Assembly: GCF_019968905.1 (NCBI RefSeq)
Contig: NZ_CP079946.1
Span: 8,839,356-8,903,355 of the forward strand
Direction of reading: 5' to 3'
Source of the DNA: Corallococcus sp. EGB
Lineage (GTDB): Bacteria; Myxococcota; Myxococcia; Myxococcales; Myxococcaceae
Length of the DNA: 64,000 nt
Within the stretch, counting starts at the first letter, position 1. The number at the start of each line of letters is the position of its first letter. The translations under genes were made by a program, and so were the position numbers. The notes under the pieces are model-generated. The model was not told the origin of the DNA, searched no databases, and worked only from the letters and a program-made list of their open reading frames with translations. Shown one piece after another: positions 45,879 through 57,320 of this stretch.

Positions 45879-46331
45879 ATGGGTGCCAAGAAAGTCACGG
45901 CGCAGGAGAAGCTGACCGGGTTCCAGGACCGGATTCGCGCCGCGGGGCTGCGCAGCACCGCCCCCCGCGTGGCCGTGCTGCGCAAGCTGGAGACCGCCAC
46001 CGCTCCCATGAGCCACGCGGACCTGGTGGAGGAGCTGGGGGGCGAGGGCTACGACCGCGTCACCATCTACCGCAACCTCACCGACCTCACCGAGGCCGGC
46101 CTCGTCGTGCGCGCCGACCTGGGCGACCACGTCTGGCGCTTCGAGCTCAAGCGCGCCGGCGCCACCGAGCACGCCAACAACCACCCCCACTTCACCTGCA
46201 CCGACTGCGGCACCGTCTCCTGCCTCCCCGAGGAGTCCGTGCGCCTCACCGCCGCTCGGGGTGTCCCCCGCGCCGTGTCGCAGCGGGCCGTGGAGGTGCA
46301 GCTGCGCGGCCTCTGCGACCGCTGCGAGTAG
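45879..46331 (+). CDS. Fur-family metal/peroxide-responsive repressor
   Basis: 150 aa from the ATG at 45879. N-terminal winged helix (LRSTAPRVAVLRKLETA, YDRVTIYRNLTDLTEAGLV) and C-terminal dimer/metal domain with HPHFTCTDCGTVSC and a terminal CDRCE, i.e. two CxxC pairs for a structural zinc. The family includes Fur, Zur, PerR and Nur; the two CxxC motifs do not decide among them. The gene is monocistronic, with 275 bp of divergent intergenic DNA to the kinase gene. I found no clear Fur-box palindrome upstream by eye. Confidence 0.92.
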   Translation: MGAKKVTAQEKLTGFQDRIRAAGLRSTAPRVAVLRKLETATAPMSHADLVEELGGEGYDRVTIYRNLTDLTEAGLVVRADLGDHVWRFELKRAGATEHANNHPHFTCTDCGTVSCLPEESVRLTAARGVPRAVSQRAVEVQLRGLCDRCE

Positions 46332-50438: not shown

Positions 50439-50876
50439 TCAGCGCAGGGGCGCCCCCAGCTTCATGCCGCCCAGGGAGCTGTCGCGCTTCTTGCGCGACA
50501 GGCTGAAGGGGCCGGGCCCGAAGTAGACGATGAGCAAGGCGCCTCCCGCCATGGAGAGGTTCTTCATGAAGTGGATGAGGTTGTTCTGCGCCTGCACCGG
50601 GTCATCCATCTTCCAGAAGTGATGGACCATGAAGGCGGACGCCACCAGGAACACGGCGAGCATGGCCGCGCCCAGCCGGGCGAAGGCCCCCAGGAGGACG
50701 CACAGGCCTCCCACCACCAGCACCCCGCCGGACACCAGCACGGCCATCCGAGGGTCGGGCACACCCGACGCCTGGGCGTAGGCCGTGAGGGCCTGGAGCT
50801 GGATGAAGTGATTGAGCCCGCTGGTGATGAAGATGACCGAGAACAGCAGCCGTCCCAGCGGTGCGAGCAGCCCCAT
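50439..50876 (-). CDS. DoxX-family inner-membrane protein
   Basis: 145 aa from the ATG at 50876, giving four hydrophobic helices (~5-25, ~45-68, ~70-92, ~110-128). Family signature near the N-terminus: GRLLFSVIFITSGLNHFIQL. DoxX proteins are small quinol- or redox-associated membrane proteins, some linked to thiosulfate:quinone oxidoreductase or oxidative-stress complexes; many have no known role. Located 218 bp from the divergent RegBA operon, so both could answer to redox state, but that is inference. Confidence 0.87.
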   Translation of the reverse strand: MGLLAPLGRLLFSVIFITSGLNHFIQLQALTAYAQASGVPDPRMAVLVSGGVLVVGGLCVLLGAFARLGAAMLAVFLVASAFMVHHFWKMDDPVQAQNNLIHFMKNLSMAGGALLIVYFGPGPFSLSRKKRDSSLGGMKLGAPLR

Positions 50877-51094
50877 GAATGACCTCCATGCCTCCGGCGT
50901 GTCCCCCCTCAACGCGGACGGGTGGGTGTCATTCTCCAGATACGCACGCATGGGCGGGCGGACAGCCAGCCCTCGCGCCCCTACCTGCTCTCCGGCCGGG
51001 TGGACAGCCGGTCCGTTTCCAGGGTGACGCACCGGAGGGCTGCGACAACACGCCACAGCGCGCGGGGACGGGGGAGCGCTAGGGTGGCCACGCC

Positions 51095-51985
51095 TTGAGA
51101 ACCCCCACCCTGGCCTTCCTGAGCGCCGCGCTCCTCCTCGCCCCCGCGTCCGCGGCATGGGCCTGCGCGAGCTGCGCGTGCGGGGACCCCACCCTCACCT
51201 CCATGGGGGGCGAGCAGCCCTTCGAGGGGCGCCTGCGGCTGTCCACGATGCTGCGCGCGTGGGGCCACACGGAGGGCGTGACGGGCGTGGATGCGCAGCG
51301 GCTGCGCGAGCTGCGCATGGACGTCGCGGTGGCGTACGCGCCCAGGCCCTGGCTGGTGCTGGCGGTGAACCTGCCGCTCCAGGCGCGCGAGGTCCAGGAC
51401 GTGAGCCTGGGGTTGGAGCGCGGCTGGGGGCTGGGCGACATCGACGTGAGCGCGAAGGCGTTCGTGTGGAAGGACAAGGAGTTCTCGCCGGACCAGCTGA
51501 TCAGCGTGGTGGGCGGGGTGAAGCTGCCCACGGGTCCCCGGTTGCACGCGCGGGACGGGACGACGCTGGGCATCGACGCGCAGCCCGGAAGCGGCTCGGT
51601 GGATCCGATGGCGGGGCTGGCGTGGCAGGGGTTCAAGGGCAAGTGGTCGTTCCTCGCGAGCGCCCTGGGCTACCTGCCCTCGCGCGGGCGCGACGACTAC
51701 CGGCTGGGAGCGTCCGTGCGCGCGCAGGTGGCGGCGCAGTACCAGCCGTCGACCACCTGGGCGGTGCGCCTGGGTGTGGACACGCGGGCGGAGAAGGCGC
51801 CGGACACGAACGGCGCGCCGGAGGAGTCCGGCGGGGGTTTCATCGGCTACGTGTCGCCGGACGTCCTGTTCAGCCCGGGCATGGACGTGGTGGTGCAGGC
51901 CGGGGTGCGCATTCCTGTCGTCAACCAACTGCGCCGGGTGTCGTCCACGCCCATCGCGGTGCTCTCGCTCGCGTACGACCTGTGA
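51095..51985 (+). CDS. Exported Cys-rich outer-membrane-type barrel protein
   Basis: 296 aa from a TTG at 51095 with AGGGTGG upstream. Signal peptide ends ...ASAAWA; the mature protein then begins with a Cys cluster, CASCACGDPTLTSMGG, followed by ~260 residues of alternating amphipathic strands (LRLSTMLRAWGHT, MDVAVAYAPRPWLVLAVNL, VSAKAFVWKDKE) ending in LAVLSLAYDL-like aromatic/hydrophobic strands typical of outer-membrane barrels. The Cys cluster could bind a metal (Cu, Zn, Fe-S) or act as redox thiols. No named family recognised. Its stop overlaps the start of the lipoprotein gene (TGATG), and the four-gene operon continues with RegB/RegA. Start codon is the least certain part. Confidence 0.75.
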   Translation: MRTPTLAFLSAALLLAPASAAWACASCACGDPTLTSMGGEQPFEGRLRLSTMLRAWGHTEGVTGVDAQRLRELRMDVAVAYAPRPWLVLAVNLPLQAREVQDVSLGLERGWGLGDIDVSAKAFVWKDKEFSPDQLISVVGGVKLPTGPRLHARDGTTLGIDAQPGSGSVDPMAGLAWQGFKGKWSFLASALGYLPSRGRDDYRLGASVRAQVAAQYQPSTTWAVRLGVDTRAEKAPDTNGAPEESGGGFIGYVSPDVLFSPGMDVVVQAGVRIPVVNQLRRVSSTPIAVLSLAYDL

Positions 51986-52728
51986 TGATCCGCGCCTCGA
52001 GTCTGGGATGGATGGGATTGCTGTGCATGCTGAGCGCGTGTGGTGAGCGCGTGGACGGCATGACCGTCACGCTGGGCCTGGAGCACCGGGCCACCGCGCA
52101 GGGCGTGCAGGCGGCGGGCGGCGAGCGCTCCTTCACGCGCGCGGACGGACAGGTGCTCACGCTGACGCGCGGCTACGTGGCGCTGGGCAGTGTGGAGTTG
52201 AGGCCGTGCGAGGAGGCCCTGGGCTGGCGGCTGTTGAAGGCGCTGTCGCCCATTGGCACGGCGCACGCGCACTCGGTGGGGTCGCCGTTGAAGCTGGGCG
52301 TGCCGCACGTGAGCGGGCTGGAGCGGCCGGACGGGACGGTGCTGAAGCTCGGCACGCTACGGCCGCCGCCGGGGCGCTACTGCCGGGCGAGGCTCACCTT
52401 CGAGCCCGCGGACGCGGACGCGCAGGGCCTGCCGGGCGCGGGCACCGGCGTGGACATGGTGGAGCACACGCTGTGGCTGGAGGGGACGCGGGTGCCCGCG
52501 AACGGCGGTGAGCCCCAGCCCTTCCGGCTGGTGACGTCCAACATCGCCACGGTGGACGTGGTGCTGGACGGGCTGACGCTGTCCGAGGACGAGCCGACGG
52601 CCGAGCGCACCTTCGCGCTCGCCTGGGACACGTGGCTGGCCACGGTGGACCTGGAGTCCCCGGGTGCGGCGGCCACGGCGCTGGACACGGTGGCCCGCTC
52701 CGTGGCGATGTCCTCCGCCACGCCATGA
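51985..52728 (+). CDS. Lipoprotein coupled to RegB/RegA operon
   Basis: 247 aa. Signal with canonical lipobox LSAC (Cys 20). The mature part is beta-rich with a motif GYVALGSVELRPCEEALGW, a His-x-His segment (GTAHAHSVGSPLKLG), GRYCRARLTFEPAD and WLATVDLESPG near the end. Length and strand pattern recall MbnP-like copper-associated periplasmic proteins, but similarity is too weak to assert. The two further Cys residues and His-x-His are candidate metal ligands. Overlaps the gene before by one base and the regB gene after by ATGA, so it is translated with both; probably a periplasmic part of the sensing or responding machinery. Confidence 0.75.
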   Translation: MIRASSLGWMGLLCMLSACGERVDGMTVTLGLEHRATAQGVQAAGGERSFTRADGQVLTLTRGYVALGSVELRPCEEALGWRLLKALSPIGTAHAHSVGSPLKLGVPHVSGLERPDGTVLKLGTLRPPPGRYCRARLTFEPADADAQGLPGAGTGVDMVEHTLWLEGTRVPANGGEPQPFRLVTSNIATVDVVLDGLTLSEDEPTAERTFALAWDTWLATVDLESPGAAATALDTVARSVAMSSATP

Positions 52729-54029
52729 CGCCTTCACCGCCGCCCTCCGAACCCCCGCTCCGAGCCCGCATCAACCTGGTGTGGCTGCTGCGGCTGCGCT
52801 GGGGCGTGCTGATGGGGCAGGCGGTGCTGGTGGCGGTGGCGGCGTGGGGCCTGAAGCTGGCGCTGCCGGTGCCCGCGCTGGTGGCGCTGCTGTGCATCGA
52901 GGCGGTGACGAACGCGGCGGTGCGCGCGGGGCTCGCGAAGGCGAGGCCCGTGGCGGAGGCGGCCATCTTCGGGCTGATGCTCTGGGACACGCTGGTGCTC
53001 ACGGGGCTGCTCGCGATGAGTGGAGGGACGCACAACCCCTTCACCACGCTGTACCTGGTGAACGTGGCGCTGGGCACGGTGCTGCTGCCGCCGCGCCGCA
53101 CGTGGGCGATGCTGGGCTTCACGCTGGTGGCGTTCGGTTCGCTGTTCGTGTTGCAGGATGTGACGTTGCCGGGACTGGAGCGGCCGGACCACGCGGAGCT
53201 GATGCGGCTGCACCTGAGCGGCATGTGGGTGGCGTTCGCGGTGGCGGCGGGCTTCATCGTGTATTTCATCCAGCGAGTGACAAGGGCGCTGGCGCGGCGT
53301 GAGCAGGAATTGGAGCAGGCCAGGGCAAGGCACGCGAGACAGGAGAAGGTGGCCTCGCTGGCGACGCTGGCGGCGGGTGCGGCGCATGAGTTGTCCACGC
53401 CGCTGTCGACCATCGCGGTGGTGGCGAAGGAATTGGAGCGGGCGCTCACGGCATCACAGACATCCGACTCCGTGAGAGAGGATTTGAGACTCATCCGCCA
53501 GCAGGTGGACCGCTGCCGGGACGTGCTGGTGCAGATGTCCGCGGACGCGGGCCAGACGACGGGAGAGCCCTTCCAGCCCATCCCGCTGGAGCGGCTGGTG
53601 CAGGAGACGCTGTCGGAGCTGACGGGCCGCGAGCGGGTGCGGGTGGACATGCCGGAAGCACTGAGGACGCATCTTGTCCACGGACCGCCAAGGGCGCTCG
53701 CGAGGGTGCTGCGAGGGCTGGTGAAGAACGCGCTCCAGGCAACGCCCATGGGTCGGGGCGTGGAGCTGCGAGTGCATCCGGAGGGCGCGGGAGCGCGGCT
53801 GGAGGTGCGCGACGAAGGACAGGGCATGCCGGAGGCGGTGCTCCAGCGTGCGGGCGAGCCGTTCTTCACCACGAAGGCGCCGGGCGAGGGCATGGGGCTG
53901 GGGCTGTTCCTGGCGCGTTCGCTGGCGGAGCAATTGGGCGGGTCCCTGGAGCTACGCTCGAAGGCAGGAGAAGGCACGACGGCGAGCCTGAGCCTGCCGG
54001 GTGCGGACCCGAAGGAGGCAGCAGCATGA
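52725..54029 (+). CDS. regB: RegB/PrrB-type redox sensor histidine kinase
   Basis: 434 aa. About six transmembrane helices in residues ~15-190, with the RegB-family heptapeptide GGTHNPF between helices (MSGGTHNPFTTLYLVN), the quinone-binding signature of this family. HisKA with phospho-His in ATLAAGAAHELSTPLSTIAV (~225) and, in the following helix, Cys in QQVDRCRDVLVQMS at the place of the redox-active Cys of RegB. HATPase: VKNALQATPMGRGV, VRDEGQGMPEAVL and GMGLGLFLARSLAEQLGG. Phosphorylates RegA, encoded next with ATGA overlap. In proteobacteria this pair controls photosynthesis, respiration and redox genes; here its operon partners suggest an envelope redox or metal function. Confidence 0.92.
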   Translation: MTPSPPPSEPPLRARINLVWLLRLRWGVLMGQAVLVAVAAWGLKLALPVPALVALLCIEAVTNAAVRAGLAKARPVAEAAIFGLMLWDTLVLTGLLAMSGGTHNPFTTLYLVNVALGTVLLPPRRTWAMLGFTLVAFGSLFVLQDVTLPGLERPDHAELMRLHLSGMWVAFAVAAGFIVYFIQRVTRALARREQELEQARARHARQEKVASLATLAAGAAHELSTPLSTIAVVAKELERALTASQTSDSVREDLRLIRQQVDRCRDVLVQMSADAGQTTGEPFQPIPLERLVQETLSELTGRERVRVDMPEALRTHLVHGPPRALARVLRGLVKNALQATPMGRGVELRVHPEGAGARLEVRDEGQGMPEAVLQRAGEPFFTTKAPGEGMGLGLFLARSLAEQLGGSLELRSKAGEGTTASLSLPGADPKEAAA

Positions 54030-54583
54030 GCACGGTCCCGGTGGATCAGCGTCCCAGCCTGTTGCTGGTGGACGACGACAGCACGCTGCGCGAGCGCCTG
54101 GCGCGGGCCTTCCGCGAGCGCGGCTGGGACGTGACGACAGCGGGAAACCACGACGAAGCCATGGCAGTGGCACGGCGCGAATCACCGGAGTACGCGGTGG
54201 TGGACCTGCGCATGCCGGGCCACAGCGGGCTGGAGCTGGTGCGAGACCTGCTGGCGGTGGATGCATCCACGCGAGTCATCGTGCTGACGGGCTACGGCAG
54301 CATCTCCACGACGGTGGATGCCATCCGGCTGGGAGCGGTGAACTACCTGCCGAAGCCCGCGGACGCGGACGACATCCTGGCGGCGTTCGCGAGGGCGGAG
54401 GAAGCGCCCAACGTCGCGGCGCCAGAGACACTCCAGGCACCGTCACTGGCGCGAGCGGAGTGGGAGCACATCCACCGAGTGCTCGCCGACAGCGCCGGCA
54501 ACATCTCCGAAGCCGCGCGCAAGCTGGGCATCCACCGGCGCTCGCTCCAGCGGAAGCTCCAGAAGTACCCGCCGTCGCGCTGA
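54026..54583 (+). CDS. regA: RegA/PrrA/ActR-type response regulator
   Basis: 185 aa, the usual RegA size. Receiver ~10-125 with DD pair in LLVDDDSTLRERL, phospho-Asp in AVVDLRMPGHSG, Thr in VLTGYGSIST and Lys in YLPKPAD; a Pro-containing linker; then the highly conserved C-terminal Fis-like HTH (NISEAARKLGIHRRSLQRK). This HTH form is diagnostic for the RegA/PrrA/ActR group. Binds DNA as a dimer after phosphorylation by RegB. Last gene of the four-gene operon; a perfect 14-bp palindrome lies 14 bp downstream. Confidence 0.93.
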   Translation: MSTVPVDQRPSLLLVDDDSTLRERLARAFRERGWDVTTAGNHDEAMAVARRESPEYAVVDLRMPGHSGLELVRDLLAVDASTRVIVLTGYGSISTTVDAIRLGAVNYLPKPADADDILAAFARAEEAPNVAAPETLQAPSLARAEWEHIHRVLADSAGNISEAARKLGIHRRSLQRKLQKYPPSR

Positions 54584-54775: not shown

Positions 54776-55087
54776 ATGGCGAAGCAGGTGGAGAAGCCGG
54801 AGTGGGCGCGTATCGCGGAGGCCTTTGAGGCGAGCGGGCAGACGCAGCGGGAGTTCGCGTTGGCGCACGGCATGCGGCTGAGCACGTTGCAGTCGTGGGT
54901 GTACCGGCATCGGCGGTCCGCTCCATCGCGAGCGGAAGCCGTGCGGCTGTTGCCGGTGCGAGTGGCGAGCGCCCCTGCGGCGCCGGAGTCCCTGGTGGTG
55001 GTGGCCACGAGCGGAGCACGGGTGCGATTCGCCGTCGGTACCGACGTGGCGTACGTGGCCCGGCTCGTCGCCGCGTTGGGGCGCTGA
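54776..55087 (+). CDS. tnpA: IS66-type accessory protein TnpA
   Basis: 103 aa from the ATG at 54776. N-terminal helix-turn-helix of the IS66 orf1 class (MAKQVEKPEWARIAEAFEAS then SGQTQREFALAHGMRLSTLQ, SWVYRHRR) and a short C-terminal beta region. In IS66 elements this protein is required with TnpB and TnpC for transposition. Begins 70 bp inside the left terminus. Appears intact. Confidence 0.85.
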   Translation: MAKQVEKPEWARIAEAFEASGQTQREFALAHGMRLSTLQSWVYRHRRSAPSRAEAVRLLPVRVASAPAAPESLVVVATSGARVRFAVGTDVAYVARLVAALGR

Positions 55088-55091
55088 AGCG

Positions 55092-55457
55092 ATGTTCGCC
55101 CTGCCTGCGTCGGTGCGCGTGGTGCTGGCGGTGGAGCCGGTGGACATGCGCAAGTCGATTGACGGCCTCATGGCGCTGGTGCGCACGGCGTGGGGCGAGG
55201 ACGTCTACTCGGGGCACCTCTTCGCCTTCGTCTCCAGGCGAGGCGACCGCATCAAGGTGCTGACGTGGAGCCGGGGCGGCTTCGTGCTTCTCTACAAGCG
55301 GCTGGAGACGGGCCGCTTCCGGCTGCCGCCGGTGGACGCGGGCGCGCAGGCAGTGACGCTGGACGCCACGCAGTTGGCGATGCTGCTGGACGGCATCGAC
55401 GTGGCCCAGGTGAGGCGCCAGCCCGCCTGGGCACCTCCCGGGCGTACGGGCAGCTGA
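55092..55457 (+). CDS. tnpB: IS66-type accessory protein TnpB
   Basis: 121 aa, 4 nt after tnpA. Typical IS66 Orf2: VEPVDMRKSIDGLMALV near residue 20, FAFVSRRGDRIKVLTW, then GGFVLLYKRLETGRFRLP. Present in nearly all IS66 elements; biochemical role unclear. Appears intact (family proteins are about 115-120 residues). Confidence 0.9.
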   Translation: MFALPASVRVVLAVEPVDMRKSIDGLMALVRTAWGEDVYSGHLFAFVSRRGDRIKVLTWSRGGFVLLYKRLETGRFRLPPVDAGAQAVTLDATQLAMLLDGIDVAQVRRQPAWAPPGRTGS

Positions 55458-55503
55458 CGTGCCCGGCTCGGGACGCGGCGTGGCGCAGGCGTGTTGAGGT
55501 TGG

Positions 55504-56917
55504 GTGCCGCGCGAACTCCCTCAGGACCACTTCTGCCCCTGGCGCGAGGAAGCCGAGGAGCTCAAGGCCGAGGTGAGCCGCATTGGCGGGGAGGTGGACG
55601 CCCTCAAGGGGCAGCTTGCGGCCCTGCAGCGCCACGTCTTCGGCAGGAGGACGGAGAAGCTGCCGACGGTGGCCGCCGAGTTGCGCGGGGACGCGGATTC
55701 GACAGCGGCCCGGGCCGAGGCCGCGAAGCAGAAGCGGCAAGAGAGGGCCGCGCGCAAGGCCGAGGGGGCTCCGGCGCGGGAGATTCACCACGCGGTGCCG
55801 GCCGAGGAGCGCCACTGCCCCGCGTGCGGCGGCGAGGACTTGAGGCCCCTGGGCCAGGGCCGCACCTCGGTGGTGTACGAGTACGTGCCCGCCCGCTTCG
55901 AGAAGCAGGTGCACGTGCAGGAGGTGCTGGCGTGCGCGTGCGGCCGGGGCGTCGTCACCGCCCCGCCTCCGGCCCGGGTGGTGGACAGGGGCGAGTACGG
56001 CCCGGGCTTCCTCTCCCACGTGGCGACGTCGAAGTGCGCGGACCCCATGCCCCTACACCGACTCGCCCAGCGGGTGGAGAGAAGCGGCGTGCCCATGAGT
56101 CGCAGCACGCTGACGGACCTCTTCCACCAGGCCGCTTCGGTGCTGCTGCCTCTGTCCCAGCACCTCTTGCAATGCATTGCGTCTGCGGACGTGGTGTGGG
56201 CCGACGAGACGCCGCTTCGCGTGCTGGACGTGAAGAAGACGAAGCGGGGCTACCTCTGGACTTTCCTCACCCAGAATGAGGCGGGGCAGTGGCTCATCGG
56301 CTACCGCTTCAGTCTGGGCCGGGCCAGCAAGACGCCGAAGGAAGTCCTGGGCGGCACCACGGGGGCCCTCGTGGTGGACGCGTACACCGGCTACAACGCG
56401 GTGACGCTGCCCGAGGGCCGTGTGCGCGTCGGGTGCTGGGCCCACGTGCGTCGCCGCTTCTTCGACGCGCTGCCCACCACCCCCGAGGCGCGTGAGGCGC
56501 TGGACTTCATCCTTGCCCTCTACCGCGTGGAATCCCAGGCACGAGGCGCGGACGTGGTGCGCACCGCGGCCCACCGCGAGCTGCGCCAGCAGCACAGCGT
56601 CAGCTCCCCAAGAGTCCGCTGGGCCAGGCCATTTCCTACGCGCTGAAGCAGTGGGACGCCCTGACGCGTTTCGTCTCCGACGCGCGCCTGCCCTTGGACA
56701 ACAACCGCTCCGAGGCCGCGCTGCGGAAAGCAGCCTTGGGCCGCAAAAACATTCTCTTCGTCGGCCATGAGGCCGCGGGCGAAAACCTCGCGGGCCTCTA
56801 CGCGCGGGTCGCCACCTGCGCGGCCAGTGGCGTCAACCCCGAGGAGTACCGGCGCTCGCCGAACACGCTCCACGTCCGCCTGCAACTGCGCGCGTCACGT
56901 CATTGGCCGGACGGGTA
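55504..56917 (+). pseudogene. tnpC: IS66 transposase TnpC, frameshifted and internally deleted
   Basis: GTG start at 55504. Coiled-coil N-terminus (REEAEELKAEVSRIGGEVDA), zinc-binding CPACGGEDL...CACG, and DDE-type core with VVWADETPLRVLD (first Asp), GALVVDAYTGYNAV (second Asp). The frame ends at a stop at 56646. The true C-terminus continues in another frame from about 56604 (PKSPLGQAISYALKQWDALT, LPLDNNRSEAALRKAALGRK, with the catalytic Glu). Between RQQHS and the QLPKSPLGQ resumption the usual ~20-residue family segment is missing, so a small deletion caused the frameshift. The extreme C-terminus is also lost at the right end. Confidence 0.85.
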
Positions 56918-56918
56918 C

Positions 56919-57051
56919 TGCCGTCGATGCTGGCGCAGAGGGCAGGCGTCATCGTGCACGTCACGTCCATCCAACGCGAGTTGCCCCTGCCAGAATCAAC
57001 GACGGCGTACGCTGCAGCGAAGGCGGCGCTGTCGACCAACAGCAAGTCGCT
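56919..57051 (+). pseudogene. SDR gene fragment next to IS66 right end
   Basis: Begins exactly where IS66 ends: [18 protein letters not shown], then [21 protein letters not shown] and STNSKSLSK, an internal SDR segment with the catalytic Ser and the YAAAK motif. Both the Rossmann N-terminus and the C-terminus are absent. The original gene was broken by insertion and deletion. Confidence 0.65.
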
Positions 57052-57320
57052 GTCAAAAAGCGCGTCGCGCAGTTCCTCGCCAAGGCAGTGAAGGACTTCG
57101 CCCGAGTCCAGGACGCACGGCCGCTCCAGCGACTGGAGCTCCAGTACTCCACCGACAACGGGACGCTGAACGTGAGCTTCGACCTCGACCCGGCGGCCGA
57201 GCCGGGACGTGGCGACGCGATGACCCATTTCGGCTTCGCGGAGTTCCTCGTTCCGCGCTGGGCAGATGTGAAGGAGCCCAGGCCGTCCCTGGTGGGCCTT
57301 GATGGCGCGAAACTCGCGGC
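57046..57320 (+). pseudogene. Fragment of an unknown gene
   Basis: In another frame directly after the SDR fragment, codons read [31 protein letters not shown]-like strands and DAMTHFGFAEFLVPRWADV, a coding-looking stretch with balanced residues and no start or proper end. It resembles the middle of a small globular protein; no family recognised. It ends where IS630-like sequence begins. Confidence 0.35.

Follow-up and report, generated by a model that had tools for sequence, protein, structure and literature searches.

A four-gene myxobacterial operon joining a RegB/RegA-like pair to envelope proteins of a candidate copper-handling regulon

Why should a RegB/RegA-type regulatory pair be encoded behind two envelope proteins? 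The regBA genes normally lie near cytochrome or photosynthesis genes. In the DNA analyzed here, a 64,000-nucleotide stretch (the window) of the predatory soil bacterium Corallococcus sp. EGB, the genome of which is one contig of 9.43 Mb, such a pair closes an operon extending from bp 51095 to 54583 of the + strand. Four genes are confirmed, with successive overlaps of 1, 4 and 4 nucleotides, as a first-pass annotation made from the sequence had claimed. They encode, in order, a predicted exported outer-membrane β-barrel channel (gene 1), a lipoprotein (gene 2), a RegB-like quinone-type sensor histidine kinase (gene 3) and a RegA-like response regulator (gene 4). In our judgment, the operon likely holds the regulator of a copper-handling regulon together with some of its outputs, and the regulon probably serves copper supply for respiration. 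The first-pass annotation had proposed an envelope metal- or redox-sensing branch that feeds the kinase. A link between envelope metal or redox chemistry and a RegB-type kinase is upheld, the metal most likely being copper, by way of MbnP and MbnH; the proposed direction, from envelope to kinase, is not.

The connection to copper is made through mbnP and mbnH. MbnP is a Cu(I) protein, a tryptophan of which is converted to kynurenine by MbnH in the characterized protein. The window genome encodes both: its MbnP scores 277.6 bits with TIGR04052 (cut-off 140) and its MbnH 500.6 bits with TIGR04039 (cut-off 362.85). The genes are found at G000:C1:6806287 and following, outside the window operon. 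The family was surveyed in 96 genomes, which are mutually related, so that the counts are not independent events. Of these, 73 contain gene 1, 69 gene 2 and 79 a RegB homologue. Among the 69 with gene 2, all except G001 (68 genomes) also contain mbnP, which none of the other 27 does; each of these 68 has a RegB homologue. In genera g4 and g26, gene 2 and mbnP are either both present or both absent. Gene-2 profile matches with E above 1e-5 (G013, G043, G046, G173) were treated as noise.

Comparison of positions shows gene 1, gene 2 and a RegB-type gene clustered in 49 of the 96 family genomes, namely 16/16 of the genus Corallococcus, 27/27 of g19, 2/2 of g5, and G051, G012, G094 and G095. In six relatives belonging to four families (f1, f9, f17, f24), all six genes stand together, in four orders. 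These are gene1-gene2-mbnP-mbnH-regB-regA in G095, G012 and G094 (loci L047, L048, L049); mbnP-mbnH-gene2-gene1-regB-regA in G161 (L155); mbnP-mbnH-gene1-gene2-regB-regA in G110 (L157); and regB-regA-gene1-mbnP-mbnH-gene2 in G182 (L192), gene 2 of the last two genomes being assigned by position and motif. Genes of the fetched loci were called from codon usage, with approximate starts, and L157 was read from its open reading frames. The six-gene clusters suggest that respiratory state controls the cell's copper handling. Partial arrangements are also seen. G039, G040 and G041 have gene1-gene2-mbnP-mbnH without regBA; in G087 (L084), mbnH-mbnP is divergent from regBA, and a contig end hides the arrangement of gene 2 and regB; the G051 contig carries gene1-gene2-regB-regA plus a convergent mbnH; and L115 and L173 have gene 1 with regBA, the remaining module genes not being nearby.

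The first-pass annotation had added that the linkage would be coincidental if the two envelope genes were widespread without regBA, or if the regBA homologues beside them had neither GGxxNPF nor the cysteine. Gene 2 does lie apart from regB in 19 of the 69 genomes (G001, six of g3, four of g6, seven of g7 and one of g8), which speaks for that view. On the other hand, 69/69 encode a RegB homologue, and the genes are found together with regBA again in various orders. Coincidental linkage is therefore unlikely, and the linkage is in all likelihood functional.

A promoter element common to separate loci bears on the direction of control. The palindrome TGYGRC-N5-GYCRCA is found upstream of gene 1 in 16/16 Corallococcus genomes and in 20 of the 21 further regions displayed, in an alignment that left out the truncated locus L001. 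Its window copy, TGCGAC-N5-GCCACA (bp 51041–51057, no strand assigned), is separated from the gene 1 start codon by 37 bases and, given the conservation of its core, is the predicted operator of the operon. Its symmetry and half-sites are similar to those of YSCGGS-N(0-10)-GWCRM, the consensus published for RegA/PrrA (Mao et al. 2005, quoted by PMC5435760). The intergenic region bearing the box is common to gene 1 and a divergent DoxX-family gene (PF07681, bp 50439–50876), an arrangement kept in many Corallococcus and Myxococcus loci.

A matrix was built from 13 distinct gene-1 sites alone, with no mbnP sites. Controls were 929 other genes, none of them overlapping a gene-1 or mbnP promoter as the divergent DoxX genes do. 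Leaving aside operon-internal copies, 18 of 24 mbnP promoters scored above the 99th percentile of the controls (area under the curve, 0.968), a conservative threshold, as the controls still include likely regulon members (SCO/YtkA, DUF1775, regA). Indeed, the top-scoring controls were SCO/YtkA, cytochrome c-like and DUF1775 genes, and regA itself. Operon-internal mbnP genes have the box in one of three cases. The pattern TGYGRCAANNNGYCRC matches the window genome six times, against 19 for the reversed-pattern control: before gene 1, before mbnP (contig position 6806189, at least 1.8 Mb from the window operon), between SCO1/SenC and YtkA genes, and at three other places. A stricter pattern gave 12 matches in eight further genomes, against 22 in the control. 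Five lie before gene 1, one in the gene 2/mbnP gap, two at SCO/YtkA, one at a DUF1775 gene with a SCO1/SenC gene nearby downstream, and three elsewhere. Boxes also precede regB or regA in L062, L084, L115 and L164. Because a RegA-type box precedes gene 1 and also mbnP genes far from regBA, we read the envelope proteins as outputs.

Gene 1 (bp 51095–51985, +) has a TTG start and encodes 296 amino acids, with a PF13557 match (E 4.5e-9). The predicted signal peptide is followed directly by CASCACGDP, i.e., C-x2-C-x-C-G. The cluster codons, C24-A-S-C27-A-C29, occupy bp 51164–51181 (+), and C24, C27 and C29 are invariant in 21/21 aligned homologues, the identity of which goes down to ~32%. The AlphaFold model, with a predicted local distance difference test score (pLDDT) of 85.3, is a barrel of ~12 strands. 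The closest structures by Foldseek are FapF, 5O67 (E 1.6e-13), and the COG4313 channel 4RL8 (E 1.7e-11). Gene 1 thus shares with COG4313/FapF channels (4RL8, 5O65) the predicted ~12-strand barrel and an N-terminal segment; it differs in being just 13–16% identical to them, in its N-terminal C-x2-C-x-C, and in having no amyloid or amphiphile link. It represents a predicted Cys-tipped channel family, and its N-terminal cluster may be a site where Cu(I) is bound by thiolates. Families f2 and f3 have remote relatives of gene 1, mostly among unrelated genes, and these were left out of the system.

Gene 2 (bp 51985–52728, +; 247 amino acids) has no match in Pfam or TIGR04052 searches; that is, the MbnP family profile does not recognize it. 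The lipoprotein Cys19, Cys75, Cys133 and His96 are invariant in 20/20 homologues. Of the two histidines in the His-x-His singled out by the first-pass annotation, His96 is thus conserved and His94 is not. In the Foldseek search with the AlphaFold model (pLDDT 85.6), the six best matches are the six chains of MbnP 7L6G, at probability 0.90–0.98, E 5e-3 to 5e-2 and template-modeling (TM) scores of 0.34–0.41. VIA-align pairs the model with 7L6G at Z 8.3 and a root-mean-square deviation of 4.1 over 181 residues, the next entry having Z 5.6. An hhalign comparison of the gene-2 and MbnP profiles aligned 69 columns at the N-terminus (probability 72.8, E 3.2e-5), a short match; the fold comparison is the stronger of the two. 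A direct sequence search of the PDB gave E 0.73, a chance match. The structural comparison suggests, short of proof, that gene 2 has the MbnP fold. The window protein lacks the WxW (kynurenine) motif; any WxW string is found in 3/20 gene-2 homologues versus 16/16 aligned MbnP sequences. Gene 2 apparently represents an undescribed lipoprotein family with a predicted MbnP-like fold.

For the kinase and the regulator, the first-pass annotation had relied on GGTHNPF, a cysteine after the H-box, and the Fis-type helix-turn-helix (HTH). All are present, though the cysteine by itself is not diagnostic. Gene 3 (bp 52725–54029, +; 434 amino acids) is the best match of its list to NF033792 (ActS/PrrB/RegB), at 261 bits, with an NCBI curated cut-off of 350 that none of the 96 family genomes passes. 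Gene 4 (bp 54026–54583, +; 185 amino acids) is likewise the best match to NF033791 (ActR/PrrA/RegA), at 180 bits with a cut-off of 250. GGTHNPF (codons at bp 53022–53042, +) is the membrane-domain motif to which quinone binding in RegB is assigned in the literature; GGxxNPF is found in 71/72 unique RegB homologues, some of which are cut by locus ends. The RC cysteine after the H-box, the redox cysteine of RegB kinases, is present in 48/48 full-length RegB homologues. RC[RK] is also found in 2/51 other H-box kinases of the fetched loci, and the cysteine alone was rejected as a RegB marker. Gene 4 has a receiver (PF00072, 1.6e-24) and a Fis-type HTH (PF02954, 8e-13), and the motif HR[RK]SLQRKL is found in 41/43 unique RegA homologues.

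According to PMC9147068, R. capsulatus RegA binds copper, which acts on it through Cys156, and group-1 regBA is cotranscribed with senC. At the position of Cys156, the invariant cysteine that precedes the HTH in group-1 RegBA, window RegA has a serine, and the Cys156 copper switch therefore cannot work there. Over 50 loci, a redundant set, the residue is Cys in 29, Ser in 20 and Ala in one. No SCO/SenC gene is present in the window operon; PF02630 is matched at five places in the window genome, all outside it. To summarize the comparison with alphaproteobacterial RegB/RegA (PrrBA, ActSR, RoxSR), the window pair shares the GGxxNPF and RC cysteine of the kinase, the conserved Fis-type HTH of the regulator, the box symmetry and, as with senC, an operon tied to a copper protein. 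It differs in its scores, in the Cys156 replacement, and in that senC lies outside the operon, a SCO1/SenC-YtkA locus elsewhere carrying the box. Its partners also differ, being the barrel channel and the lipoprotein of predicted MbnP fold and, in relatives, mbnPH.

Further RegBA loci were noted. All 27 g19 genomes have a second RegB homologue outside the operon (L044, L045, L057); at L057, the HTH of the accompanying regA is a variant form, and genes of molybdenum-hydroxylase-like type, read by eye, are nearby. In L051, L054, L056 and L060 (g3, g6, g7), regBA follows genes for a site-2-protease-like and a Cys-rich protein, and a DinG-like helicase gene is near (both by eye).

A model consistent with these observations is as follows. 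RegB would sense how oxidized or reduced the quinone pool is and phosphorylate RegA, which would bind the TGYGRC-N5-GYCRCA boxes before gene 1 and mbnPH, and probably also those at the SCO1/SenC-YtkA and DUF1775 genes. The gene 1 product would form a channel in the outer membrane, with Cu(I) handled by its N-terminal Cys cluster. The gene 2 lipoprotein and MbnP would receive copper at the periplasmic face and hand it over, and SCO-type proteins would load terminal oxidases with it. Too little working copper oxidase would leave the quinone pool reduced, which RegB would sense, closing a supply loop. The anatomy of the genes, their conservation, linkage and co-occurrence and the common promoter box are observed here, and the folds are predictions. 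What the model adds by inference is that RegA binds the box, in which sense it regulates, that genes 1 and 2 handle copper, and that the copper is imported, not exported. A sharper form of the model, possible but doubtful as yet, makes RegB/RegA an indirect sensor of copper sufficiency: starved copper oxidases would give reduced quinones, and RegA would induce an import and delivery line. That line would start with an outer-membrane channel gated by thiolates and would further comprise an undescribed lipoprotein of MbnP fold that has no kynurenine, the kynurenine-bearing MbnP and SCO chaperones.

The same regulon could instead be one of copper defense: once excess Cu(I) had disturbed the quinone pool, RegBA would induce the envelope proteins for its binding or export. 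The Cys-rich cluster on the export side and the periplasmic binders would also suit sequestration, a copper response of RegA is on record (PMC9147068), and the linkage and box evidence cannot separate import from export. Yet SCO1/SenC genes, whose products function in oxidase assembly, have the box in front of them; a look by eye at the surroundings of the clusters showed no copper ATPase or CusABC-type pump; and mbnPH and CorA/MopE-type partners are tied to copper shortage in methanotrophs (PMC3621798, PMC3912023 and PMC3423442). We regard defense as unlikely. A different regulator, e.g., one of the Fis type, might bind the boxes, regBA then being a respiratory regulator with no copper role. 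RegA binding is a prediction, and the kinase query has 130 matches in the window genome, mostly to other kinases. This explanation is quite improbable, as the box follows the RegA/PrrA consensus and stands before regB or regA itself at four loci, and as regBA repeatedly rejoins mbnPH in differing gene orders. About equally improbable is the earlier reading in which both envelope proteins modulate RegB as sensory input. Cotranscription with overlaps and the conserved cysteines would fit it. In the 19 genomes with gene 2 far from regBA, however, fetched loci of the genera concerned retain the RegA-type box before gene 1 and/or mbnP, and one box is common to the envelope genes and mbnP, which is what would be expected of outputs. 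Chance or inherited synteny without a functional link gains from the relatedness of the genomes, most of which come from one family with non-independent counts; it is hard to reconcile with four gene orders in four families, the joint presence or absence of gene 2 and mbnP in g4 and g26, and the same box at unlinked copies, and we give it almost no credence.

Several points weigh against the main reading, in which the operon holds the regulator of a copper-handling regulon and some of its outputs. In L115, from a Deltaproteobacteria metagenome-assembled genome, gene 1 and regBA stand beside Fur, COG0523-like and Znu-like genes (read by eye, Fur excepted), a setting that suits zinc; zinc was ranked low as the metal, since this is a single locus. 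RegB and RegA both score under the NCBI equivalog cut-offs, and window RegA lacks the residue through which copper acts on R. capsulatus RegA. The profile matches gene 2 of G110 and of G182 weakly (E 5.8e-5 and 4.8e-7, respectively; Z=10000). Outside the family, five of 12 mbnP-positive genomes have no gene-1 match (G111, G141, G180, G181, G187), and gene-1-like barrels are widespread without mbnP; thus, the gene 1/gene 2/mbnPH/regBA module is a frequent, non-obligatory partnership. As for the box, 4/24 mbnP promoters score ≤11.4, strict-pattern matches are absent in two of the eight further genomes (G033, G161), and the strict core is found in 100/135 gene-1-type loci, a redundant set that includes remote homologues; several first-gene copies, e.g., those of L047 and L061, are without it. 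Both patterns match less often than their reversed controls, so it is the places of the matches, not their number, that count as evidence. Moreover, the pattern was refined after the gene-1 and mbnP sites were both known, which makes the SCO and DUF1775 sites the freer test.

On the reading of the operon as regulator plus copper-handling output, two known systems, RegBA and MbnPH, are joined in a new combination. No description of an operon so composed was found in an open-licence library searched for MbnP, RegA and M. xanthus copper. The likeness to MbnP/MbnH (TIGR04052/TIGR04039; PDB 7L6G, 6E1C) lies in the co-occurrence of true mbnPH, in the same operon in relatives, and in the predicted fold of gene 2. 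The differences are that gene 2 has neither WxW nor an MbnP sequence match and that control is of the RegBA type; methanobactin genes and a TonB transporter were not seen in the operon, no search having been aimed at them. In methanotrophs, CorA/CorB and MopE/SACCP comprise a copper-repressed, copper-binding surface protein with a kynurenine site and a di-heme peroxidase partner (PMC3621798). The MbnP/MbnH pair is alike in having a copper-binding protein with a kynurenine site and a di-heme peroxidase partner; the regulator differs, and the likeness is one of description, not of sequence comparison. PMC3621798 also reports MbnP/MbnH pairs far beyond methanobactin producers, terming them mysterious partners of unclear role. 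The present findings would supply these partners with a regulator and its promoter box, with a channel in the outer membrane and with a second protein of predicted MbnP fold, making their role directly testable in laboratory myxobacteria. They would also provide a route from a global respiratory sensor to the control of copper supply, and this may be why regBA is found beside copper proteins in distant bacteria. If the copper-sufficiency form of the model is true, mbnPH outside methanobactin clusters acquires a defined pathway and regulator.

A few minor observations remain. In L072, L076, L078 and L079, second, diverged pairs of MbnP-like and MauG-like genes adjoin true mbnPH. The record of L105, titled Comamonas sp. 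KCTC 72670, has a Myxococcus-type operon with gene 1 62–63% identical, and is probably misnamed or contaminated. In the window, a Fur-family regulator gene (PF01475, bp 45879–46331) lies ~5 kb upstream of the operon, and IS66-like transposase genes or remnants (bp 54776–57300, translations read by eye) directly follow regA on its 3′ side.

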